Of a DNA stretch of 64,000 bases, positions 29,080 through 41,319 are shown in pieces (positions within the stretch are counted from its first letter, which is position 1; every line of letters begins with the position of its first letter). The translations under genes and the position numbers were made by a program. This DNA is from Clostridia bacterium. GTDB lineage: Bacteria; Bacillota; Clostridia; UMGS1883. A model generated the notes under the pieces. It was given only the letters and a program-made list of their open reading frames with translations, did no database searches and was not told the DNA's origin. The DNA lies in the NCBI GenBank assembly GCA_017505525.1, contig JAFVPB010000015.1, positions 64,026-128,025 of the forward strand, written 5' to 3'.

Positions 29080-29391
29080 CTATGAGTTCCACACAATTCT
29101 TTTTATCAAGGTATTTACAATAGCAGGTGTCAGTTCCTTTAAATCGGTACACTCACGGATTGTTTCAAGAAATCTTTTCATATCCACTTTTTCTGTTTCA
29201 GCATCAATAATTGATTGTTCGAGATTGGATAAGGCTTCACGGAGTTCCTTTTGCTCTGCTTCAAAATTTGCAGACATTATAGCAAAGCGTTCATCAGATA
29301 TTTTGCCCATAACATTATCCGTATAAATTCTTTCAATCAGTTTATCAAGCTCTGTAATTCGCTTTTTGGACTGTTCGGCTTTTAATTTCAT
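29080..29391 (-). pseudogene. Large serine recombinase, C-terminal fragment (TnpX/TndX type)
   Basis: About 100 residues match the coiled-coil C-terminal region of large serine recombinases: KRITELDKLIERIYTDNVMG, KISDERFAIMSANFEAEQ, ECTDLKELTPAIVNTLIKRI. The catalytic domain is missing, an IS remnant abuts the upstream side, and the 3' end stops early at IVWNS. It is a decayed relic of an integrative or transposon element, on the same strand as the tnpV relic at the other end of the island. Confidence 0.85.
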
Positions 29392-29403
29392 AGTTGTTGT
29401 GAT

Positions 29404-29864
29404 ACAATTGATAGGTGACAAATAAAAAGGAAAATGATTCCCAAATATGATATAATGTTTAATAACCACAAAAAACATGTATCAGGAGGAGTCATTTTCC
29501 ATGAATATTTTAACATCAAACGCCCACTTTCGTCAACGGGTTGTTAAGAAAAGTTTCAAAGTAGGTGTAACAGAAGCATCAAAATACTACAGAATAAGCC
29601 GTCAGGCAATCTATGAATGGCGAGCTAAATATGATGGCAAGAGCTGGAAGAGCCTTGTTGACAAAAGTCACAGACCACACCATCATCCAAATGAGCATAC
29701 TCCAGAAGAAAAGCAAATGATATTAAGACTTTATCCATATCACAAAGATGATATGATAATGCTTTGGGATGCTTTACGAAAAAGAGGATATAAACGAAGT
29801 TATACAAGTTCGGAGCAACACTTTTTATTTTTTAGGAAAAGTGTCACCCATCATTGACAATTGT
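29404..29864 (+). mobile_element. Internally deleted insertion sequence remnant
   Basis: The left end ACAATTGATAGGTGACA (29404-29420) and the right end, read in complement, ACAATTGTC...GGTGACA (29864-29842), form imperfect terminal inverted repeats around a truncated transposase gene. At about 460 bp it is far below a functional size, so it cannot move itself. Confidence 0.65.
29501..29815 (+). pseudogene. IS transposase, N-terminal fragment (helix-turn-helix)
   Basis: About 105 residues of a transposase N-terminus: VGVTEASKYYRISRQAIYEW is the helix-turn-helix, followed by SLVDKSHRPHHHPNEHTPEE, the IS481/IS3-like linker. After RGYKRSYTS the family-like sequence ends and unrelated residues follow; the DDE catalytic domain is missing. 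The start is ATG 29501, after AGGAGG. Confidence 0.8.
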
Positions 29865-30054: not shown

Positions 30055-30678
30055 ATGAGAGAACCTTCTGCAAAAGATATAGATAAGATTGAAATTTTAG
30101 AGAAATGTTTTGATTATTTGTGCGACTATGGACTTGAACAAGTATCTATTCGCAAATTGTGTGATCGTACAAATATGGGAGCCGGAAGTATTTATTATTG
30201 GTTCAAAAATAAAGATGAAGTTATTTTAGATGCTACAGAATATGGAATTAACCATTTAATTGATGAATTGATGGATTTTGCTTTTGAACATATAGATAAT
30301 ATTGATATTTTGTGCGAAGAATTTCCTAAAATGATTGAGCAAAGAATAGACAAACTTAAAGTGATTATTAGAGTGGCAACAAGTCCAATGTATTGTGATA
30401 GCTTGAGTTTGTATTCAAAGACATTTACATATAAGTATGATTCTTATGCACAAAAATTGTCGCAAAGAATAAATCTTCCTTATAACACGATAAGAGTTTT
30501 AGTCGATAATTTTGTTTCAGTAACAATAGATTGCATCATATGGGAAGATTGGAACAAATATAAACGTCAACTCGAATATGTCTTAGAAGGATTAAAATTA
30601 GCATCAATTAAAAAAGAAAAAGAAGAAAGTGAAAATCGAAACAATTCTAGTTGGTTTTCAGTCGGAAATGATCTTTAG
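30055..30678 (+). CDS. TetR/AcrR-family regulator
   Basis: This 207-residue protein has an N-terminal TetR helix-turn-helix (about 10-60): ILEKCFDYLCDYGLEQVSIR, LCDRTNMGAGSIYYWFKNKD. The helical C-terminal half would bind a ligand or partner. It is the first gene of the accessory run, with a palindromic operator just upstream, so it likely represses itself and the genes downstream. Leucine codons are mostly TTA/TTG, unlike the core genes to the left. Ligand unknown. Confidence 0.88.
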   Translation: MREPSAKDIDKIEILEKCFDYLCDYGLEQVSIRKLCDRTNMGAGSIYYWFKNKDEVILDATEYGINHLIDELMDFAFEHIDNIDILCEEFPKMIEQRIDKLKVIIRVATSPMYCDSLSLYSKTFTYKYDSYAQKLSQRINLPYNTIRVLVDNFVSVTIDCIIWEDWNKYKRQLEYVLEGLKLASIKKEKEESENRNNSSWFSVGNDL

Positions 30679-30709: not shown

Positions 30710-31819
30710 ATGGGCGAGGTACATGAAATCCTTAGATACAAAAGACCTTATGACAGTTGGTTGTGCCCGGAGTGTGACACAGAAAATAGTGTGTCGCTTG
30801 GTAAATGTACGGTATGTGGGTGCAGAAAAACATCATCGGCAACGATATTAAAACAATGGACAGAAGCTGATGATAGACCTGTTACACCACCACCGAAGAA
30901 AACATCTACATCCACTACTACAACATCCGTGTTTAAGGATACAGAAAAAGACTCGTATGTTCCTGAAGAAGAAACAAATAAGAACAAGATTATTTGGGGA
31001 ATTATCATTGCAATTATAATCATTTTCTTATTGATTGCTATAAATCAAGGCAATACATATGCAGCATATTCGGATGCAATGAATGAATTTAATAATGGAA
31101 ACTATGAAACTGCACTAATGTTGTTTGAAGATTTACCATCCAATTACAAAGATGTTTCCTATATGATTGATGAATCAAAATATCAAACTGCTATGGGATA
31201 TTTACAATCAGGGGATTTTACGTCAGCCGAATCGTTGTTTGAAAGTGTTTCCTACCATAATGATTCGGCAGAAAAACTAAATGAATGTAAATATCAAGCT
31301 GCATACTCTCTATTCAACTCTGGAAACTATAATGAAGCTAAAGGTAAGTTTCAAGAAATATCTTCATATTCAAATTCATCTGAAATGGTAAATGAATGTG
31401 ATTATATGGTCGCTTTAAATTATAAAAACAGTGGTGACTATGTAAAATCTATGAAAGCCTTTAAGGATTTAGGCAGTTATAAAGATAGCAGCAATCAATT
31501 CAGCAATTCAGAAAATTCATTGATTTCTTATAATAGAAGAAATGGATATTATAGCAATGAAAATTCAATGGTTGGAAATTGGACAGACGAATCAGGAAAT
31601 TATACAAACTATACTCGTAAAAGTGATGGTTCAACCCATGTAAATTATAATTTAGGATATACAGAAGGAGAATTTTATAAAATTTCAAATGGTGTGCATT
31701 ATCACGGGAATGATTATAGTGGTTGGAAGAAACAATGGATTTTCCAACGGATTGATAGTAATAGTGCTCAAGTATATAACTATATAGACGGACAAATTTA
31801 TAATCTGTCGAAAAATTAA
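30710..31819 (+). CDS. RanBP2-type zinc finger, membrane and TPR-like protein
   Basis: This 369-residue protein has three parts. A cytoplasmic N-terminus carries W17-x-C19-x2-C22-x3-N26-x6-C33-x2-C36, an exact RanBP2-type zinc finger pattern, followed by a Thr/Pro linker. One membrane helix spans about 94-112. An extracellular part has about five degenerate repeats of the form YxxAxxxxxxGxYxxAxxxFxxL (about 115-265), TPR/Sel1-like, then a beta-rich C-terminus (GNWTDESGNY...). It probably links an outside sensor to a cytoplasmic zinc finger. AGGATGAT precedes the ATG. No PAGDL tail is present. It is not a recognised named family. Confidence 0.7.
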   Translation: MGEVHEILRYKRPYDSWLCPECDTENSVSLGKCTVCGCRKTSSATILKQWTEADDRPVTPPPKKTSTSTTTTSVFKDTEKDSYVPEEETNKNKIIWGIIIAIIIIFLLIAINQGNTYAAYSDAMNEFNNGNYETALMLFEDLPSNYKDVSYMIDESKYQTAMGYLQSGDFTSAESLFESVSYHNDSAEKLNECKYQAAYSLFNSGNYNEAKGKFQEISSYSNSSEMVNECDYMVALNYKNSGDYVKSMKAFKDLGSYKDSSNQFSNSENSLISYNRRNGYYSNENSMVGNWTDESGNYTNYTRKSDGSTHVNYNLGYTEGEFYKISNGVHYHGNDYSGWKKQWIFQRIDSNSAQVYNYIDGQIYNLSKN

Positions 31820-31831
31820 GGAGGTACAAAA

Positions 31832-32485
31832 GTGATTTGCGACAAATGTGGAAAAAGTAATATAAGTGGCTTATCCGAATGCTCTTACTGTGGTGCTGAA
31901 ATGCCAAAAACTTCAGCTTGCGGTGGTTTCGCAGATATATTAAGTTATAAATCTTTAGGCGAAACAACACCACTTGCTATTAAACCGGATGTGCCGAAAT
32001 ACGAATATGAAAAGAAATCTGAAGGGATGAGTGATTTAGATATGCAAAAATTGATAAAAAAGTCTGATAGCATTATGAAATCAACAAAGGTAAACTCTTT
32101 ATTCGGTTTAATTGCTATTGGTTTAAGCTTTTTGATTCTTGTAAGTTCAATTATTTTTGGTATTGTAACTATTAGTACGGTAAAAGGTTACAAAGAAGAA
32201 ACAATGACACAATTAGAAGAAACCAAAAAAGAATTATTAGATTATAAAACACAACTTGATACATTGTTTGAAAAAATCGAAGATGATAAAACCGATAACA
32301 CAAACAATGTTGAGAACAAAGACGAGAACAAAAACGAAGAAAAAGATGAGTCTAATCAGGAAACTACAAATAACAAAACAAAAGATAAAACTAAAACTCC
32401 TGATAAGGAAAACGAAAAAGGCGATAAAGTTAAAAATCCGTCATTGCCTACTACAGATGCAGACGGTAATATAAAAAATCAATAA
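31832..32485 (+). CDS. Zinc-ribbon, single-pass membrane protein with charged tail
   Basis: This 217-residue protein has an N-terminal zinc ribbon (C3-x2-C6, C17-x2-C20), a membrane helix (about 90-115), a short coiled coil (about 120-150) and a Lys/Glu/Asn/Asp-rich low-complexity tail (about 151-217). The start is GTG 31832, after AAGGAGGT. Cytoplasmic zinc ribbon plus external coiled coil suggests a scaffold or sensor. It lies between the TPR protein and the VWA gene in the same transcription unit. Function unknown. Confidence 0.65.
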   Translation: MICDKCGKSNISGLSECSYCGAEMPKTSACGGFADILSYKSLGETTPLAIKPDVPKYEYEKKSEGMSDLDMQKLIKKSDSIMKSTKVNSLFGLIAIGLSFLILVSSIIFGIVTISTVKGYKEETMTQLEETKKELLDYKTQLDTLFEKIEDDKTDNTNNVENKDENKNEEKDESNQETTNNKTKDKTKTPDKENEKGDKVKNPSLPTTDADGNIKNQ

Positions 32486-32509: not shown

Positions 32510-33196
32510 ATGGGTAGCAACTATCAAATTACATACAATGTGGATATGGTGTTCTGCATTGACTGTACCGGAAGTATGGGAAACATTATTGAGATTGTAA
32601 AAAAGAATGCTTTGAACTTCTATCAGGATGTAACTGATGTTATGGAAAAGAAGCATAAGCATATTAGTCAGCTTAGAGTTCGTGTTGTTGCGTTCCGTGA
32701 CTATGATGCAGACAAAGAAAAAGCTATGATGGTTACTGACTTTTTCAAACTTCCGCAAGAAGCAGAAGAATTTGAAAAGTGTGTTCGCAGCTTAAAAGCT
32801 GAAGGAGGCGGAGATGATCCGGAAGACGGTCTTGAAGCACTTGCTTATGCAATCAAATCCAATTGGGATACTGAGGGTATGAAAAAACGTCAGGTAATCG
32901 TTGTATGGACAGATGCTCCTACACATCCTATCGGCTATGGTAAAGATAGTGGTTATTATCCTAATGGTATGGCAAGCGACATTAAGGAATTATCCTCATG
33001 GTGGGGCGGTGCTCAACAAAGTGGTTTTGTTGACAACAACGCAAAGCGTCTGCTTTTGTTTGCTCCTGATGCTCCTGATTGGAATGTTATATCACAGAAT
33101 TGGGATAATGTTTTACACTTCCCTTCAGAAGCAGGTAAAGGATTGGCAAACTTGGAATACGAGGAAATTATAAACACAATTTCTAACTCAATTTAA
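32510..33196 (+). CDS. VWA-domain protein (TerY-like)
   Basis: This 228-residue soluble protein is almost entirely a von Willebrand A domain. The MIDAS is D18-C-T20-G-S22 (VFCIDCTGSMG), followed by FRDYDAD, EGGGDDPEDGLEAL (about 98-111) and VVWTDAPTHP (about 131-140), segments typical of TerY-like VWA proteins. Such proteins occur with a PP2C phosphatase and a kinase in phospho-dependent modules; both are encoded here. Its metal-dependent face could bind the shared tails or a kinase substrate. GGAGG precedes the ATG. Confidence 0.85.
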   Translation: MGSNYQITYNVDMVFCIDCTGSMGNIIEIVKKNALNFYQDVTDVMEKKHKHISQLRVRVVAFRDYDADKEKAMMVTDFFKLPQEAEEFEKCVRSLKAEGGGDDPEDGLEALAYAIKSNWDTEGMKKRQVIVVWTDAPTHPIGYGKDSGYYPNGMASDIKELSSWWGGAQQSGFVDNNAKRLLLFAPDAPDWNVISQNWDNVLHFPSEAGKGLANLEYEEIINTISNSI

Positions 33197-33211: not shown

Positions 33212-34114
33212 ATGAAAAAAGCAAACCAAGAATTAAATTCTATATTTTCCGTAGCTGAAGAAATGGTTAAAAACAATGGAGAGGATTGTTTTTATTATGA
33301 TGTAATTGATAATAATTTCATCATAGCAGCTCTTGATGGTTGCGGTGGTTCAGGTTCAAAAAAATATGAAAACTATTCCGGCAAAACGGGTGCTTATATT
33401 GCATCACGTGCAGTTTGCGGAGGTATAAAGTCTTGGTTTTGTGAATCAAACAAAGATAGTGAACTCCCTAAATATATACACGAGGCTTTGTCTGTATGTA
33501 AGCAACATGCAGACAAAGCCGGACGTATTATGGGTTCGCTAGGAAAAGCTTTCCCCACTACTGCGTCTGTTATAACAGGCAAAATGGATGGAAACAAAGT
33601 TGATGCAACCTGTTATTGGGCTGGTGATTCACGGTGTTATATGTTAGACGCAAACGGATTACATCAATTGACAGCAGATGACCTTGATGGTCAGGATGCT
33701 ATGAGTAATTTGTCAAATGACGGAGTCATGACGAATGTAATCAATGCAAGTACATCTTTTGAAGTACATAATAAAAAATTATCTTTCAAGAGTCCGTGCA
33801 TACTTTTAACTGCAACGGATGGATGCTTTGGATATCTGAACTCTCCGATGGAGTTTGAATATCTATTAACCGATTCTTTAATCAAAGCAAAAAACTTACA
33901 TGAATGGAAAATTGCTTTGAATGAGCGGATGCATGATGTTACGGGTGATGATTATACCCTGAGTGTCGCAATCTGCGGTTTTAATGACTTTGGAGAAATA
34001 CAAGGCAACTATAAAAAAAGAAATGCTTATGTTACTGATACATATATAAATCAGACAACTGATGTTAATGCTATGTGGGAGATTTATAAAAAAGAATATT
34101 CTACATATCTTTAA
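33212..34114 (+). CDS. PP2C-family protein phosphatase (accessory system)
   Basis: This 300-residue cytoplasmic PPM phosphatase is only distantly like the PrpC at 24.2 kb. Catalytic and metal residues appear intact: E24-D25 (NNGEDCF), D42-G43 (ALDGCGGSG), G138-D139-S140-R141 (WAGDSRCYM), D203-G204 (LTATDGCFG) and D246-D247 (TGDDYTLSV). With the VWA and kinase genes it completes a VWA-phosphatase-kinase triad, probably reversing phosphorylation by the 37.5-kb kinase. Confidence 0.88.
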   Translation: MKKANQELNSIFSVAEEMVKNNGEDCFYYDVIDNNFIIAALDGCGGSGSKKYENYSGKTGAYIASRAVCGGIKSWFCESNKDSELPKYIHEALSVCKQHADKAGRIMGSLGKAFPTTASVITGKMDGNKVDATCYWAGDSRCYMLDANGLHQLTADDLDGQDAMSNLSNDGVMTNVINASTSFEVHNKKLSFKSPCILLTATDGCFGYLNSPMEFEYLLTDSLIKAKNLHEWKIALNERMHDVTGDDYTLSVAICGFNDFGEIQGNYKKRNAYVTDTYINQTTDVNAMWEIYKKEYSTYL

Positions 34115-34128
34115 GGGGGATTTTTAAT

Positions 34129-35145
34129 ATGGGTGGTACACTATATACTTCATGGAAAGATGCATTAGGTGCATCGCATATTGATGAACCTGTTGCTGTA
34201 TTTGAAAATGGGAAGATTTATTCCGCGGCGGATGGTTTCCTTGGAACTACGGCAAAAGGTGTTCTAATCGGTGAATATGAAGGCGGAATAGTTTATACCG
34301 TTGGAACCGGTGCATTCAACTATGGTAAAAGATTAAACGCTGTAGCTGTAATAGAATACGGAAAGATTTATAGCATTTCCAAAAGTATGCTTGGAGGCAT
34401 ATCAAAATCGCTGTCTGTTGGTGAGTGTTCATGTGGAAAGGTATATTCACACTCTCACAAATTAATGGAAGGTAGCGAATCATTCGGACTTTACAATGGT
34501 GATGAAGAAGGTGCTGCAGCGGCGGCGGCAATTGCACTTTTTAAATTAGAGTCAAATGTTTCTGCTTATGATAGTACATTGACCGGAGGATCTTCAAGTA
34601 GAAGTTCTTCTTCCGACGATGATGACGACCTGTGGGAAAAGTACGGATTGTTAATGCCTATAGTTATTACATACAGATTTTTCAAATATAGTTTTATTGT
34701 CGGGAAATGGATTGTTGGTATTATTGCTTGGCTAACAGGAGGTATTATTCGACTTGTTCAAAAACACAAGGAGAAAAAAGCTCTTGAAGAAATGGAACGG
34801 GCTGAAGAGTTTCCTGAAATCAAGGAAACAGAAATAGATACAAGTGCAAGCACAGACACATCTGTTGATACTGATGTGGTTGTAGATACAATTACCGAAG
34901 ATACAACAACCGATATTCCGAAAACATATAAGGAAACTATTGAAGTCGAAGAAGAAATCGTTGAGACAATTCCTATTGAAACAGAGAAAAAAGTAGATGA
35001 TGCTCCTGTAGAAAATGAAATAGAACCAGCAACGGAGCCTGCAACAGTCGCAACAACCAGCAGATTGAAATTGACCATGAGAACAGCTACAGCGGAGACT
35101 TCAATTGAAGAATCTGACAAATTCAAACCTGCTGGAGATTTATAA
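34129..35145 (+). CDS. Beta-repeat membrane protein with PAGDL tail
   Basis: This 338-residue protein of no known family starts with about four imperfect repeats (about 20-125) built on ExGKIYS...GxxxK (FENGKIYSAADG, YEGGIVYTVGTG, IEYGKIYSISKS, CSCGKVYSHSHK). A Ser/Asp linker (SSSRSSSSDDDDD), two hydrophobic segments (about 176-213), a Lys-rich stop and a long acidic Thr/Glu-rich tail follow. It ends SDKFKPAGDL, the tail shared with five other proteins of this operon. AGGGGG precedes the ATG. The preceding residues (RLK.TMRT...IEESD) are also shared with the 36.0-kb protein. Confidence 0.65.
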   Translation: MGGTLYTSWKDALGASHIDEPVAVFENGKIYSAADGFLGTTAKGVLIGEYEGGIVYTVGTGAFNYGKRLNAVAVIEYGKIYSISKSMLGGISKSLSVGECSCGKVYSHSHKLMEGSESFGLYNGDEEGAAAAAAIALFKLESNVSAYDSTLTGGSSSRSSSSDDDDDLWEKYGLLMPIVITYRFFKYSFIVGKWIVGIIAWLTGGIIRLVQKHKEKKALEEMERAEEFPEIKETEIDTSASTDTSVDTDVVVDTITEDTTTDIPKTYKETIEVEEEIVETIPIETEKKVDDAPVENEIEPATEPATVATTSRLKLTMRTATAETSIEESDKFKPAGDL

Positions 35146-35162
35146 GAAACGGAGACAATATC

Positions 35163-35780
35163 ATGAGTGATCAAAAGAAAAAGAATCTTATTATTTTAGT
35201 AACCTGTATGATTATATGTGTTGTTTTAACATCACTATTACTCACTAATTCAGTAGTATGCAGAGGATGTGATAAAAAGATAACTGGTAAATACTTCAAC
35301 GATGGAGGCTTTAGTGATACGACTTTTTATTGCAAAGAATGTGCAATAGATTATTATGGACCATTTTTCAAAAATGATATGGCTTTAAAAGTAAACAATA
35401 CACTGCGTAATATTCTTGTTATTATCGAAATTCTTGGTTTTGGTGCAGCTATTGTTGTTATGAATAAAGGTGGAATCAAAGAGGTTAAGAAGTTTGTTCC
35501 TGTTTCCAGACCGATATCAGGAACAACACCAATTAAAGAAAAACCTCCTGTTTCCGATCCTAAACCAGTAGTTGAACCCAGACCGGTTGTTACTCCTGTT
35601 CCCACCCCAGACTCAGTTGAAAAAACAATTCCGGAAGATGGTGGAAGACTGAAGACGACATTCAAACCGATTTCCGAATCAAGGATTGAAGCCGAACCTC
35701 CTTCTTCTACTGTAAGTTTTGAACCATCTTCAGCATCTCAGAGCAATGATGATAGATTCAAACCGGCCGGAGATTTATAA
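35163..35780 (+). CDS. LIM-like zinc-finger, two-pass membrane protein with PAGDL tail (paralogue 1)
   Basis: This 205-residue protein has a positively charged N-terminus, membrane helix 1 (about 9-30), a compact zinc finger (C33-x2-C36, C57-x2-C60; CRGCDKKITGKYF, CKECAIDYY) resembling half a LIM domain, helix 2 (about 82-101) and a Pro-rich tail ending DDRFKPAGDL. By the positive-inside rule the zinc finger is external and the tail cytoplasmic. It is paralogous to the protein at 36.0 kb, including the ICVVLTSLLL helix and DKKITGKY. Function unknown. Confidence 0.7.
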   Translation: MSDQKKKNLIILVTCMIICVVLTSLLLTNSVVCRGCDKKITGKYFNDGGFSDTTFYCKECAIDYYGPFFKNDMALKVNNTLRNILVIIEILGFGAAIVVMNKGGIKEVKKFVPVSRPISGTTPIKEKPPVSDPKPVVEPRPVVTPVPTPDSVEKTIPEDGGRLKTTFKPISESRIEAEPPSSTVSFEPSSASQSNDDRFKPAGDL

Positions 35781-35823
35781 TAAAAAATGACGAAATATTA
35801 AAGTATATGAAAGGTGACTATCA

Positions 35824-36018
35824 TTGAAAGTTCCATTAATATTATATAAAATTTCTGTGTTAGCCAATATATTTAGTATTGTTGGCGTTATCTTGGTTTT
35901 TGTTGGAATTTATGCTTTGTGATGTCAGGAAATATTAGCCGCATTCGTATATGCAGGTGCAGGAATGTTGTTAATAGTTTTAACTAATATAATTCACGAT
36001 AAAGTTCAGGAGAGGATA
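35824..36018 (+). pseudogene. Small two-helix membrane protein interrupted by in-frame TGA
   Basis: From TTG 35824 the frame reads KVPLILYKISVLANIFSIV, then GVILVFVGIYAL, a TGA at 35920-35922, then CQEILAAFVYAGAGMLLIVL. Reading TGA as Trp (one base from TGG) would give a tidy two-helix protein whose frame runs on into the next gene. Other genes here use TGA as a normal stop, so a nonsense mutation is the simplest explanation; the 32-residue first half may still be made. AAAGGTGA precedes the TTG. Confidence 0.5.
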
Positions 36019-36024
36019 AAAATC

Positions 36025-36720
36025 ATGAGTGAGAAACAAAAAAAACAAACAATATCATTAGCGGTTATTATGGTTATCTGCGTAGTTCTGACTTCATTAC
36101 TTTTAAGTAACTCATTACAATGTGCAGATTGCGACAAAAAAATCACGGGGAAATACTATATTTCTTTATCCGAAAGACCATATTGTAAAGATTGTGGAGC
36201 TGAATACTATCGTGTTTTTCCGGGAGAATTAGACAACATAACAGACAGAGTTGATAATACTGCAAGAAACATTCTTGTTATAGTTGAGTTGATAGGTTTT
36301 ATTGGTGCAATGGTTGTAATCAATAAAAAGAAAGTAGCAGAAACAATTAAAAGTGATGGTGTTGCATCGGTAACAAGAAAAATACCCGTTATAAAAGAAG
36401 AAGTTAAAAAAGTTGTTGAACCTATCGTAAAAAAAGAAACTCCGATTGAACCAAAACCTGAAATAAAGCCGGAGGTTAAACCGGAAGTTGAAAGCGAAAA
36501 AACTCCTGAAGTGCGAAAGGAAGAAATTTTTGATATAACCCATATTGAAACAGAGAAAAAAGCAGATGACATTCCAGTGGAAAAAGAAACAAAAGTCGAA
36601 ACAGAATCACCAACAGAAATGTCGTCAATTAGTAGACTAAAATCCACGATGAGAACATCGACATCCAAAACAACAATCGAAGAATCTGACAGATTTAACC
36701 CCGCCGGAGATTTGCAATAG
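36025..36720 (+). CDS. LIM-like zinc-finger, two-pass membrane protein with PAGDL tail (paralogue 2)
   Basis: This 231-residue paralogue of the 35.2-kb protein has helix 1 (about 10-29), a zinc finger (C33-x2-C36, C54-x2-C57; CADCDKKITGKYY, CKDCGAEYY), helix 2 (about 81-100) and a Lys/Glu/Pro-rich tail (about 105-220). It ends SDRFNPAGDLQ, the only copy with an extra residue after the motif. The start is ATG 36025, 8 bases after GGAGAGG; the frame is open further upstream into the interrupted small gene. The tail segment RLKSTMRTST...IEESD is shared with the 34.1-kb protein, suggesting tail exchange or duplication. Confidence 0.72.
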   Translation: MSEKQKKQTISLAVIMVICVVLTSLLLSNSLQCADCDKKITGKYYISLSERPYCKDCGAEYYRVFPGELDNITDRVDNTARNILVIVELIGFIGAMVVINKKKVAETIKSDGVASVTRKIPVIKEEVKKVVEPIVKKETPIEPKPEIKPEVKPEVESEKTPEVRKEEIFDITHIETEKKADDIPVEKETKVETESPTEMSSISRLKSTMRTSTSKTTIEESDRFNPAGDLQ

Positions 36721-36732
36721 GAGGAAAGAAAC

Positions 36733-37431
36733 ATGGATAAAACTATAATTAAAAAATTTGGACCAGGTATATTAATTGTAATAGCTATTATTCTTATTAT
36801 TAGTACTTTTTTAAAAAGTGATAGTAGTGCCATCGTGGGGAAATGGCAGTTCGAAGAGGATGACCACGATTCCTATGTGGTTGAATTTTATAGAAAAGGT
36901 ACAGGCGTATCGTATGTTATTTCAGGAGGAGAGGTAGAGGATTCTCAGACGTTTAGCTATATTGTACACGATGGAATGATAACTGTAACTGGGTATGATG
37001 GGTTCACATCTCCTTATGAAATATCGGGAAACAAACTTTTGTTGGATGGGTTAGAGCTTTACAGAAAAGGTGGTGGCATCATCCCTTGGGTTCGTTATAT
37101 ATTAGTAATTGCTTGTTTGATATTTGCAATTTTAATCAGCAAAAAAGATGTTGTGACGATAGCTGAGAAAATAAAAAAAGAAGACCCTGAAGTTGAAACT
37201 ATAGGAAAAACATCGATTGTTAGCAGAGAGAAAAAAGCAGAAACAGCAACGAAAGAGTCTGATGATCCAAAAAAAGATGATGTAAAAATCAAATCAGAAA
37301 CTGAAGTAAGCCCAACAAAAGTCCATAGCGAACTAGGAACAACGTTTAGAGCTAAAATGGATGATGTTAATGAAAAAGAGGGCTCTAAAGAAACCAAAGG
37401 TGATTGGTTCAAATCGGCGGGAGATTTATAA
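36733..37431 (+). CDS. Two-pass membrane protein with external lipocalin-like domain and SAGDL tail
   Basis: This 232-residue protein has helix 1 (about 10-27), an external beta-rich domain (about 32-115; IVGKWQFEEDDHDSYVVEFY ... YEISGNKLLLDG) like the small lipocalin-type domains of gut Firmicutes, helix 2 (about 118-139) and a charged cytoplasmic tail ending GDWFKSAGDL. AGGAGG precedes the ATG. The architecture (outside domain, membrane, tagged inside tail) repeats that of the neighbouring tagged proteins. Confidence 0.68.
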   Translation: MDKTIIKKFGPGILIVIAIILIISTFLKSDSSAIVGKWQFEEDDHDSYVVEFYRKGTGVSYVISGGEVEDSQTFSYIVHDGMITVTGYDGFTSPYEISGNKLLLDGLELYRKGGGIIPWVRYILVIACLIFAILISKKDVVTIAEKIKKEDPEVETIGKTSIVSREKKAETATKESDDPKKDDVKIKSETEVSPTKVHSELGTTFRAKMDDVNEKEGSKETKGDWFKSAGDL

Positions 37432-37467
37432 TAATTACAAAATTAGGAAGTATATGGTGATACATAG

Positions 37468-38847
37468 ATGAACATTAATGGATACACATTAAAAGCAGAA
37501 TTAAAGAATGCAAACAGCGGATTTTCAAAATGGGGATTTGCTACGAAAAATGGTAAAGAATACTTTATCAAGGAGTTAATAAACCCCGTTTACCCTATTG
37601 ATAAAAGTATAATGTCTGAGGAATTATTTCAACAACGCAGAACCTTTTGCTCACAGTATGAAACTAAATTCAAAAAATTCTTTGGACAAATAAATAATGC
37701 AAGTCATGGAAATCTTGTTAGAATAAATGACTTTTTTCGCTGTGGTGGCAGATATTACTTGATAACAGAAAAAGTCGATGGAAAATCTGTTTCGATGGAT
37801 TATATTGCATCGTTAGAAGATGAAAAAAAACTTCTGTTGTTAAAAACTGTAGCACATTGTTTTCACGATTTGCACTCTGCAGGAATTGTTCATTTTGATG
37901 TTAAGCCGTCTAATATTCTTGTAAAAGTGACCAAAAGTGGTAATTATGTAGCTAAACTTATTGACTTTGACTCAGGATTTTTTAAAGGCGAAGTTTTAGA
38001 TAACAAAGAATTAGGTGGCGATTTGACATACCTTGCACCTGAAACATTTCTTGCTATTTATGGTGAAGATGTTCATCCTGATGAAAAGGCTGACATTTTT
38101 GGGTTAGGATTAGTATTACATGAATACTGTTGTGGAAGATTACCATATTACGATGAAAATGAATATGAGTATCCATACGAAGCAGCATTGGATAATGGAG
38201 TTTTAATGCCTGATGCTTCGTTACTTTCTGATGAAATCTGCAAACTAATCACATCTATGTTGGATGCAGATCCTCAAAAAAGACCGTCTGCTGAACAAAT
38301 TATAATCAAGCTTAATGAATTAAGCGCTGACGAAGGTTTTGCTGAGATTACAAACATAACTATTCACTTTGATGGGCACTATGGCAAGTCTATTAGTGTT
38401 TCACCCGACAAAATTAAGTATAGAAATACTATTCATCCTTCGATAGCTCCGGAAACAAGAAACTTTCCGGCATCTTATACTGCTCAGAAAGAAAAAAACA
38501 TTACGTTGGAGCAATATGAAAATATAATAGATGAAATTTCTGCTGTAGGATTATTTGATATAATTACTCCACATATTGACAAGGAGGTTAATCCTGGAGC
38601 GGTATATCAAGCGGTTTCAGTTGTGTATGAAGATGGTACACATTACGATTACTCTACTATGGGTGAACCCGATATACAATTCAAAAAAGTTTCTAAGGTT
38701 TTATCTGAATACTGTGACTTCCCTGAAATTGAATCTTCTTGGTATGAAACGGAAATAGAATCAAGTGATGAAGCTCCGGTATTTACTCCACCTAAGCCAA
38801 CTGAATCAAAGAAAGATGATTGGTTTAAACCTGCGGGAGATTTATAA
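37468..38847 (+). CDS. Soluble Ser/Thr protein kinase with PAGDL tail
   Basis: This 459-residue protein has a eukaryotic-type kinase domain at about 6-285: Lys35 (YFIKEL), the catalytic loop VHFDVKPSNIL with D144, K146 and N149, D166-F-D168 in place of DFG, LAPETF and DIFGLGLVLHEYCCG. It appears catalytically competent. A C-terminal domain of unknown type (about 295-425) follows, then DDWFKPAGDL. There is no membrane segment, so the tail must be read in the cytoplasm. It is the third member of the VWA-phosphatase-kinase set and lacks PASTA domains, unlike PrkC at 25 kb. Confidence 0.85.
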   Translation: MNINGYTLKAELKNANSGFSKWGFATKNGKEYFIKELINPVYPIDKSIMSEELFQQRRTFCSQYETKFKKFFGQINNASHGNLVRINDFFRCGGRYYLITEKVDGKSVSMDYIASLEDEKKLLLLKTVAHCFHDLHSAGIVHFDVKPSNILVKVTKSGNYVAKLIDFDSGFFKGEVLDNKELGGDLTYLAPETFLAIYGEDVHPDEKADIFGLGLVLHEYCCGRLPYYDENEYEYPYEAALDNGVLMPDASLLSDEICKLITSMLDADPQKRPSAEQIIIKLNELSADEGFAEITNITIHFDGHYGKSISVSPDKIKYRNTIHPSIAPETRNFPASYTAQKEKNITLEQYENIIDEISAVGLFDIITPHIDKEVNPGAVYQAVSVVYEDGTHYDYSTMGEPDIQFKKVSKVLSEYCDFPEIESSWYETEIESSDEAPVFTPPKPTESKKDDWFKPAGDL

Positions 38848-38916
38848 TGCAGAGAGCTATTCATTTTATGGATAGCTCTGTGTTGCTTTAATGGACAATG
38901 TTAAAAGGTGATAAAA

Positions 38917-39525
38917 ATGTCAAATAATTACAAGAAAAATAATGCCAAAACAATAACAATATCTTTAGTGGTTATACTGATTGCCGTTATTTTATTAAAT
39001 ATATACTTATATTTATCAAATCAAAATAGAAGAAATGAATATATCGAGGATACCACAAAAAATAGTAATGTTGATGTTATGACTGAACAAGAGAATGGTC
39101 AAAAAGAAGAACAATCATACGAAGTAGAACTTGTAGAAGTTCCGGATTGGTATATTGTTGGACAAGTTGCGGTAAAAGGCAATCAAGTCTGTTTTTCACG
39201 AGATGACGGTTTGATAATGGAAAACGATGTTATGCCCACTACTGTTACCGTTTATACCTCAGATGATAGTGGAAAACTCATTGATATGACAGAATACATA
39301 ATTTTTGAGTCAGAAGAACTGGCAAAATATCATTGTGAAAGATTAAATAACTACGAAGATGGAACTAATAGCTTCGGAATGGCTCCCGGTGAAGCGGCGT
39401 ACTATTACTGCGAAAATATTATGTTAGAAGTTTTTGATAAAAATTATTATCAGAAAGAATATGAAACTCTACAAGATGTAATAGATATGTATGCAGGATA
39501 CGGATGGCTCATAAATTATCTTTAA
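38917..39525 (+). CDS. Single-pass membrane protein, unknown family
   Basis: This 202-residue protein has a short Lys/Asn-rich cytoplasmic end, a membrane helix (about 14-33, TITISLVVILIAVILLNIYL) and an external domain (about 55-202). Its first 35 residues closely resemble those of the next protein (SN-YKN-N..KTITI...NIYL), so the two share a membrane anchor but carry different external domains. The start is ATG 38917, after AAAGGTGAT. No PAGDL tail. Confidence 0.6.
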   Translation: MSNNYKKNNAKTITISLVVILIAVILLNIYLYLSNQNRRNEYIEDTTKNSNVDVMTEQENGQKEEQSYEVELVEVPDWYIVGQVAVKGNQVCFSRDDGLIMENDVMPTTVTVYTSDDSGKLIDMTEYIIFESEELAKYHCERLNNYEDGTNSFGMAPGEAAYYYCENIMLEVFDKNYYQKEYETLQDVIDMYAGYGWLINYL

Positions 39526-39567
39526 ATTATAATCAAGAAATCATGAATTTTGCTTGGAGGGAATGTT

Positions 39568-40209
39568 ATGGCAAGCAATTATCAAAACAAAAATAACAAC
39601 AGTAAGAAAATAACAATAATTTTAGTTGCCATTCTAGTTGCAGTTATAGGTGTGAATATCTATCTATTTGCATCTAACCAAAGCAAAAGAAATGAGGATA
39701 CCTCCGATAATTATTCTGCTGAGAATAATACGACAGTCATTGAATCGAATGACGTTAATGAAACAACACCTTCTGATAAAAAAGAAGGATATGTTATTGC
39801 TACTAAACTTGATGAAAACTTTGTCTTGGATATTGAAAATTCTGATATTTCAAGTGGTGCAAATCTACAACTTTGGGAACGCAATATCAACAATGCCCAA
39901 ACATTTGAATTAAAAAAACTTGATGACGGTTATTATCAGATCATAAATATCAATTCAGAAAAAGCACTTGCTGCTGAGAACGGTGGTAAATACGAGCATA
40001 CTAATGTATGTCAAGAAGATGTTGGGGTATCAAATTCTCAATATTGGAGTTTAGTAAGTGCCGGAAACGATTATTACTACATAATAGAAAAAACAAGTGG
40101 ACTTTATCTTGATGTAGATAATGCTTGGACAGAAAATGGCACAAATATAAAACTATTTTCCCAAAATGAAGCCTATGAAGCTCAAAAGTGGAAATTGATA
40201 AAACAGTAA
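39568..40209 (+). CDS. Membrane-anchored ricin-type beta-trefoil lectin
   Basis: This 213-residue protein has an N-terminal membrane anchor (about 14-33) and one ricin-B-lectin-like domain (about 75-213), with repeated QxW-type motifs: FVLDIENSDISSGANLQLWE, ALAAENGG, YLDVDNAWTENGTNIKLF and AQKWKLI. It is likely to bind carbohydrate at the cell surface. The start is ATG 39568, after GGAGGG. The anchor is nearly the same as in the preceding gene. Confidence 0.78.
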   Translation: MASNYQNKNNNSKKITIILVAILVAVIGVNIYLFASNQSKRNEDTSDNYSAENNTTVIESNDVNETTPSDKKEGYVIATKLDENFVLDIENSDISSGANLQLWERNINNAQTFELKKLDDGYYQIININSEKALAAENGGKYEHTNVCQEDVGVSNSQYWSLVSAGNDYYYIIEKTSGLYLDVDNAWTENGTNIKLFSQNEAYEAQKWKLIKQ

Positions 40210-40230
40210 ATTAATATGGAGGAATGCAAA

Positions 40231-41319
40231 ATGAAAAAGATAGGTTCGATTTTAATGATGATAGTCTTTGTGCTATCACTTTCCGTTAGTGTTTTGGGAG
40301 CAGGAGCCACATCGGGAACGTGTGGTGAAAATGTAACTTGGAATTATGATACATATACTTGTACTTTAACAATTAGCGGCAGCGGTAATCTAAATGACTA
40401 CACTATATATACTGACAATGAAGCTCCTTGGTATGATTATAGAAAAAGTATAAGAACAGTAGTTATTGAAAAAGGTATCACATCAATAGGTGATTACACA
40501 TTTAAGCAGTATTACTCATTGTCAAACATAACAATACCCGGAACTGTAAAATCTATTGGAAGCAATGCTTTTTACGGCTGTAAAGCTTTAACCAGTATCG
40601 ATATTCCTGAAGGTGTTACTACACTTGAATCAGAAGCTTTTACTTACTGCGAAAACTTAATGACAGTATCGTTACCCAAAAGTTTGAGAGTTATAGAAAA
40701 TGGTGCTTTTTCATGTTGTACAAGATTACAAAATGTCGAATTACCTAAAAAGTTAGAAACTCTTGGTAATGATACATTTATAAACTGTTATGGTATTACA
40801 TCTATTGAAATTCCTAATGGAATAACGGAAATTGGTAGTTACTGTTTTAAGGGTTGCACTAATTTACAAAGTATTACCATTCCGGGTAGTGTAACAAAAA
40901 TCGGAAATAGTGCTTTTTATGAGTGCGGTAGTTTAACAGACATAAAGTTTAAAGGTTCTGAAAAACAATGGAACAATATATTATTTGAAGATTACAACGA
41001 AAACTTACAGTATGGTAATGTAAGCTATGGCGGGGGACTTCCCATATTACCCATTATCATAATTGCTCTTATTGCTGCGATTGCATTTGCTCTTATTAAG
41101 TCAAAAAAGGTTGATGTTACAAAGGCAAAAAGTATTGTTAGCGAAGCAAAAAGAACAATAGAGGAAAAAACTATTATTACAGAAAAAAAGGTTGAACCAA
41201 AAAGAGAACCAATAATTGAAAGAAAGATACCTTCAGAACCTAAAGTGGAGGTTGTAGAAAAGCCAAAAACAGAGGAACCCAAAAAAGATGATTGGTTTAA
41301 GTCTGCCGGAGATTTATAA
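40231..41319 (+). CDS. Secreted leucine-rich-repeat (BspA-like) receptor with SAGDL tail
   Basis: This 362-residue protein has a signal peptide (about 1-22), a short beta domain, six or seven BspA-type leucine-rich repeats (about 75-250; e.g. SIGSNAFYGCKALTSIDIPE, TLGNDTFINCYGITSIEIPN), a membrane helix (about 270-288) and a Lys/Glu/Pro-rich cytoplasmic tail ending DDWFKSAGDL. The start is ATG 40231, 7 bases after GGAGG. BspA repeats usually mediate surface binding, so this looks like a receptor with an intracellular tag, parallel to the 36.7-kb protein. Confidence 0.8.
   Translation: MKKIGSILMMIVFVLSLSVSVLGAGATSGTCGENVTWNYDTYTCTLTISGSGNLNDYTIYTDNEAPWYDYRKSIRTVVIEKGITSIGDYTFKQYYSLSNITIPGTVKSIGSNAFYGCKALTSIDIPEGVTTLESEAFTYCENLMTVSLPKSLRVIENGAFSCCTRLQNVELPKKLETLGNDTFINCYGITSIEIPNGITEIGSYCFKGCTNLQSITIPGSVTKIGNSAFYECGSLTDIKFKGSEKQWNNILFEDYNENLQYGNVSYGGGLPILPIIIIALIAAIAFALIKSKKVDVTKAKSIVSEAKRTIEEKTIITEKKVEPKREPIIERKIPSEPKVEVVEKPKTEEPKKDDWFKSAGDL

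Follow-up and report, generated by a model that had tools for sequence, protein, structure and literature searches.

In stress and defence systems, TerY-like VWA proteins have phosphatases and kinases as neighbours, and to our knowledge the ligand of these VWA proteins is unsettled. The acidic tip of SSB exemplifies a C-terminal peptide that is short, conserved, placed on a disordered linker and read by a hub. The closest described gene set, the TerY-P triad, comprises a TerY-like VWA protein, a PP2C-type phosphatase and a Ser/Thr kinase (PMC11090510, citing Anantharaman 2012 and Gao 2020), and in the published forms of the system a zinc ribbon or an OB-fold is fused to the C-terminus of the kinase (PMC11090510).

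The window analyzed here, a stretch of 64,000 nucleotides from a gut-dwelling Clostridia bacterium (contig JAFVPB010000015.1), resembles this system in encoding a VWA protein, a PP2C phosphatase and a Ser/Thr kinase side by side, in the presence of zinc ribbons and in the intact metal-site motif of the VWA protein. It differs in that the kinase carries no C-terminal zinc ribbon or OB-fold (only kinase-type domains were recognized by Pfam) and ends instead in a linker followed by FxxAGDL, a tail common to the kinase and to separate zinc-ribbon and membrane proteins. As the zinc-ribbon fusion to the kinase is missing, the system was classified as TerY-P-like rather than as a strict member. No restriction genes were seen beside the window triad. 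With regard to a role in tellurite resistance or phage defence, PADLOC returned no match for the VWA protein or the phosphatase and only generic matches for the kinase. We infer that a docking peptide shared by the kinase and the zinc-ribbon proteins replaces the TerY-P fusion. The cluster contains the following features:

30055..30678, + strand: protein with a TetR-family N-terminal domain (PF00440, 27.1 bits), tail SSWFSVGNDL; probably the seventh member of the tagged set, and the gene that opens the cluster
30710..31819, + strand: zinc-ribbon-like protein with one transmembrane segment (TM) and TPR-like repeats, untagged
31832..32485, + strand: second small zinc-ribbon/TM protein, untagged; position conserved
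32510..33196, + strand: TerY-like VWA protein (VWA_4, 1.6e-11; Integrin_beta above cut-off), the proposed tail reader
33212..34114, + strand: PP2C-type phosphatase (PP2C_2, 1.1e-4, just under the curated cut-off)
34129..35145, + strand: beta-repeat protein with one TM and a cytoplasmic linker, tail DKFKPAGDL
35163..35780, + strand: two-TM zinc-finger protein, tail DRFKPAGDL
35965..36720, + strand: zinc-finger paralogue of the preceding protein, tail DRFNPAGDLQ, one residue past the tag
36733..37431, + strand: protein with two TMs flanking a weak lipocalin/DUF5640-like match, tail DWFKSAGDL
37468..38847, + strand: Ser/Thr protein kinase (Pkinase, 2e-30), tail DWFKPAGDL; of the tagged components, the one that is kept throughout Clostridia
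38853..38879, + strand: terminator-like hairpin with a weak T run, 3' of the kinase gene
40216..41319, + strand: BspA-type LRR protein (LRR_5, 4.6e-66) with a signal-like N-terminus and one C-terminal TM, tail DWFKSAGDL

FxxAGDL tails close the six ORFs ending at 35145, 35780, 36720, 37431, 38847 and 41319, exactly where the first-pass annotation of this DNA had placed them; in this order they read SDKFKPAGDL, DDRFKPAGDL, SDRFNPAGDLQ, GDWFKSAGDL, DDWFKPAGDL (the kinase) and DDWFKSAGDL, the third running one residue beyond the tag (GDLQ). A tail scan revealed a seventh, related tail, SSWFSVGNDL, at the end of the TetR-like ORF 30055-30678. The FxxAGDL-stop DNA pattern, which leaves out the GDLQ copy, has five matches in the 2.4-Mb source genome, all five inside the tagged operon, a distribution not attributable to chance, and over these 2.4 Mb it detected no strict tail in the rest of the genome. 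Judged by hydropathy and flanking charge, the tagged membrane proteins have their tails in the cytoplasm, in agreement with the earlier prediction. The tag possesses no conserved Ser, Thr or Tyr and is therefore not itself a phosphosite. A Shine-Dalgarno role for the GGAG within it was rejected, the first tag lying ~25 nt from the next start and the others farther, and recognition of the very end of the chain, of the PDZ or ClpX-like kind, was rejected because the last residue shifts between tails. A search of openly available papers found no description of this tail, in line with the previous statement that it matches no known sorting or docking motif; apparently, it represents a conserved, undescribed C-terminal tag of a TerY-P-like system. 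It resembles the SSB acidic tip in its brevity, its conservation and its C-terminal place on a disordered linker, but here the tip is borne by many unrelated proteins, its reader is putative and its last residue may shift.

Directly to the left of the cluster, at 29080-29857, lie recombinase-like and helix-turn-helix transposase-like ORF fragments, and mobile-element or phage-like genes were seen near some related loci too (L023, L036). The treatment of the tagged genes as one operon, adopted in the first-pass annotation, is plausible as far as the kinase gene; the terminator-like hairpin at 38853-38879 precedes the LRR gene and may split it from the core transcript. The bodies of the tagged proteins, previously described as otherwise different, proved so for the kinase, in which body comparison detected no similarity to the other tagged proteins outside the tag, but not for the remainder: the two zinc-finger proteins (35163..35780 and 35965..36720) are paralogues over their full length, the beta-repeat protein and the second zinc-finger protein have ~107 residues of cytoplasmic linker in common, and some membrane or linker stretches of the lipocalin-like, zinc-finger and LRR proteins exceed shuffled sequences in similarity. 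The N-terminal zinc domain of the protein encoded at 30710..31819 and its place upstream of the VWA gene recur at related loci. This TPR protein was rejected as an EEVD-type clamp reader, as its repeats follow the TM and the orthologue in a congener has none.

A VWA scan of 84,980 species genomes yielded 43 loci, the titles of which name Clostridia, Oscillospiraceae, Lachnospiraceae, Blautia, Oribacterium, Faecalibacterium and others; kinase and PP2C genes adjoin the VWA gene in most of them, the PP2C family being kept at nearly all. One record (L099, MT836186.1), deposited as 'Bacteriophage sp.' from human faeces, contains VWA and PP2C genes closely similar to the pair at the Faecalibacterium locus L047. 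Two congeners (G015 and G017) keep the gene order zinc-ribbon, zinc-ribbon, VWA, PP2C, tagged membrane protein and tagged kinase. A match in G017 (G017:C72, L013) is a 71-codon frame bearing the tail, probably a remnant, and a piece at a contig end in G015 (G015:C44) shares the kinase tail.

The question raised earlier, whether tail matches cluster with VWA, PP2C and kinase genes, was answered in a class sample of 391 genomes (13 with and 378 without the VWA gene), 19 of which contain the FxxAGDL-stop DNA pattern: it was present in 7 of the 13 VWA-positive and 12 of the 378 VWA-negative genomes (Fisher p = 3e-7). The matches in the VWA-negative genomes were rejected as tagged genes, since they close short frames of 5-37 codons, with the exception of one 317-codon ABC-permease frame, which ends AGDF and not AGDL. 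When only ORFs of at least 60 aa were counted, the permease included, the linkage to VWA reached p = 5e-11 (Fisher), and no ORF of this length with the strict tail was found in the 378 VWA-negative genomes. A relaxed form of the tail ends 21 of 267 non-kinase ORFs near VWA versus 1 of 395 elsewhere (p = 4e-8), the single distant match being a trypsin-like protease at locus L045. The tail was not found as a common feature of unrelated proteins in the 391-genome sample, nor is it missing from orthologous operons, being kept in congeners and across Clostridia and tied to the triad loci; the initial view of a peptide-level signal associated with the VWA, PP2C and kinase genes was thereby strengthened.

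By hand count, F-x-x-[AGP]-x(0-3)-[DENS]-L describes the ends of about 33 of the 42 kinases from clostridial VWA loci; a further seven have NGLSRFMKK-like ends, and two (L045 and L060) have no tail. In an alignment of 27 diverse kinases, conservation reaches 90% or more at each of the tail residues F, D and L but not in the linker. In the kinase tree the RFMK-type tails group as a single clade; tail labels in this tree come partly from a crude pattern, which wrongly marks L045 as 'tailed' and gives 'other' for L025 and L034. The seven loci with such tails (L052, L056-L059, L062 and L064) possess the VWA protein, PP2C and a kinase ending NGLSRFMKK instead, and consequently an acidic tail is not a requirement of the VWA family. 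No neighbour bearing an NGLSRFMKK-type tail was found at these seven loci; most of their phosphatases end DWRI/DWRL-like.

The kinase-type tail recurs on separate neighbouring proteins, mostly zinc-ribbon or membrane ones, and most tailed accessories carry zinc ribbons. Within a locus the two tails vary together, as in the kinase/neighbour pairs STGGDL/KTGGDL (L088), KADDLS/NKANDLD (L032) and TPGNL/TPGDL (L048), and the neighbour tail tracks that of the kinase at L035, L039, L042 and L054 as well. With tails curated by hand, accessories picked by motif resemblance and loci related to one another, tail similarity amounted to 0.425 within loci versus 0.293 for shuffled loci (0 of 20,000 shuffles as high), and for 14 diverged loci to 0.359 versus 0.255 (p = 0.0003).

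Several individual loci deserve mention. A divergent VWA-VWA-PP2C-kinase locus (L091 2820-5802, - strand, genome G342) encodes a kinase ending QKLAKTK and a zinc-ribbon neighbour ending QKLAKKV, with a common C-terminal stretch QFxRxxM...QKLAK; it shows the same principle with another tail, matched between kinase and zinc-ribbon neighbour. At L039 (7520-8932) a tagged neighbour combines a borderline TIR domain with a protein kinase domain and ends GFSRASDLD, a hint of conflict-type output in a single lineage. The L045 protease mentioned above (1021-2802) is membrane-anchored by one TM and has a cytoplasmic tail ending FFNVPPEL.

Gly-Asp-Leu-stop is spelled GGAGATTTATAA in 5 of the 6 window tags, although TTA makes up only ~14% of the Leu codons in ten window genes, and the window tags are therefore partly DNA-level copies of gene ends. 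The first-pass annotation had taken codon variation within the window as a sign of selection on the peptide; this applies to the FKPA part, the codons of which vary, but not to the nearly fixed end, and selection is shown instead across genera, where the tag codons differ (e.g., GGGGACTTATAA, GGAGATCTGTAA and GGGGATTTGTAA), so that the peptide is what is kept. It is very improbable that recent gene-end copying within the operon left the tags behind as mainly neutral remnants without a common reader: the uniform end codons, the paralogous zinc-finger genes and the linker module in common would suit such an origin, but the residues are retained with different codons across diverged clostridial lineages, a conservation that already disfavours it, and the tails sit on non-homologous bodies and co-vary within loci. 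We also consider improbable a degradation or quality-control signal for a C-terminal-end protease adaptor, by which the triad partners would be held at matched low levels. The tail is indeed short, C-terminal and present on soluble as well as membrane proteins, but its last residue shifts (GDL, GDLQ, GGDLI, ADDLS, DDLL), with the inner F and D/E-L remaining constant, unlike end-reading degrons, and it is confined to the genomes and loci of this triad.

The choice among readers within the triad concerns chiefly the VWA protein and its two enzymatic partners, all three of which had been named as candidates at the outset. The metal-site residues D18-T20-S22, D103-P104-E105 and D135 of the VWA protein are conserved, and D, T, S, E and D are invariant in 38 rows. 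Among solved folds, integrin beta I-like domains lie nearest to the model of a relative (Z ~16.6, 195 residues, rmsd 3.1), and a weak profile match links the VWA protein to integrin beta-8 with the metal loops aligned. In these domains the loops D-x-[ST]-x-S, D-x-P-E and T-D...T-H align with those of the VWA protein, and the Asp of the tail, followed by Leu, would be the ligand, as in RGD/RGDL Asp peptides; the VWA protein differs in being free-standing, cytoplasmic and bacterial, its ligand binding is predicted, and the resemblance of the tail to RGDL may be a coincidence. Two AlphaFold runs, read by their pLDDT, were performed on in-frame read-throughs of neighbouring genes from different species (L028 and L053), with stops read as Gly. 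In the VWA-zinc-ribbon-tail model (L053) the linker has a pLDDT of 30-37 and the last 13 residues, partly ordered with a short helix, 50-66, whereas in the PP2C-kinase-tail model (L028) the tail stays at ~51 and then 42, and no docking is seen. This pair of models weakly favours the VWA protein or the zinc ribbon over PP2C or the kinase as the holder of the tail, and in the L053 model it could be the zinc ribbon, not the VWA protein, that holds it. Thus, the fold and a modest AlphaFold signal speak for the VWA protein among the three original candidates, and the PP2C-kinase model gives no such indication for the other two; we regard the chances that the VWA protein is the reader as about evenly balanced. 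That the tail docks on PP2C or on the kinase itself, serving substrate docking or autoinhibition and delivering tagged proteins to the enzyme instead of the VWA protein, seems rather unlikely. A PP2C neighbour does stand beside nearly every tailed kinase, and the sole locus with VWA and kinase genes and no PP2C gene, L045, has a tail-less kinase, a pattern that could equally implicate PP2C as the reader. On the other hand, the tail remains low-confidence in the PP2C-kinase-tail model, and L045 is a single locus at which the protease, ~6-8 kb away from the VWA-kinase pair, still ends FFNVPPEL.

A docking function of the tail is very likely, and the tail very probably serves as an address label that gathers the kinase and sensor-like proteins into one signalling complex. 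We slightly favour the more specific proposal that it is a docking peptide drawing sensors and zinc-ribbon adaptors to the VWA/PP2C/kinase triad, with the VWA protein as the likeliest reader. According to this proposal, the tail would mark the kinase, the variable membrane sensors and the zinc-ribbon adaptors as members of a single complex built around the TerY-P-like triad. The tagged membrane proteins would expose sensor domains outside the cell and carry the tag on a long and flexible linker in the cytoplasm; the tail's conserved acidic residue would sit in the integrin-beta-like metal site of the VWA protein, with Phe/Trp and Leu lodged in adjoining pockets, and the kinase and phosphatase would set the phosphorylation state of the gathered proteins, the direction of signalling being presumed. 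A broader generalization can be offered tentatively, as possible but somewhat doubtful: FxxAGDL may be a general clostridial address code, read at the metal site of a cytoplasmic integrin-like VWA protein, by which sensors plug into a kinase/phosphatase module through the gain of a seven-residue tail, the code drifting by lineage together with its reader.

The tail, tracking lineage as it does, is a concrete candidate ligand for TerY-like VWA proteins and offers a way of recognizing members of such pathways by sequence. If the proposal is true, it would represent a modular docking code by which new extracellular sensors are wired to an existing kinase.
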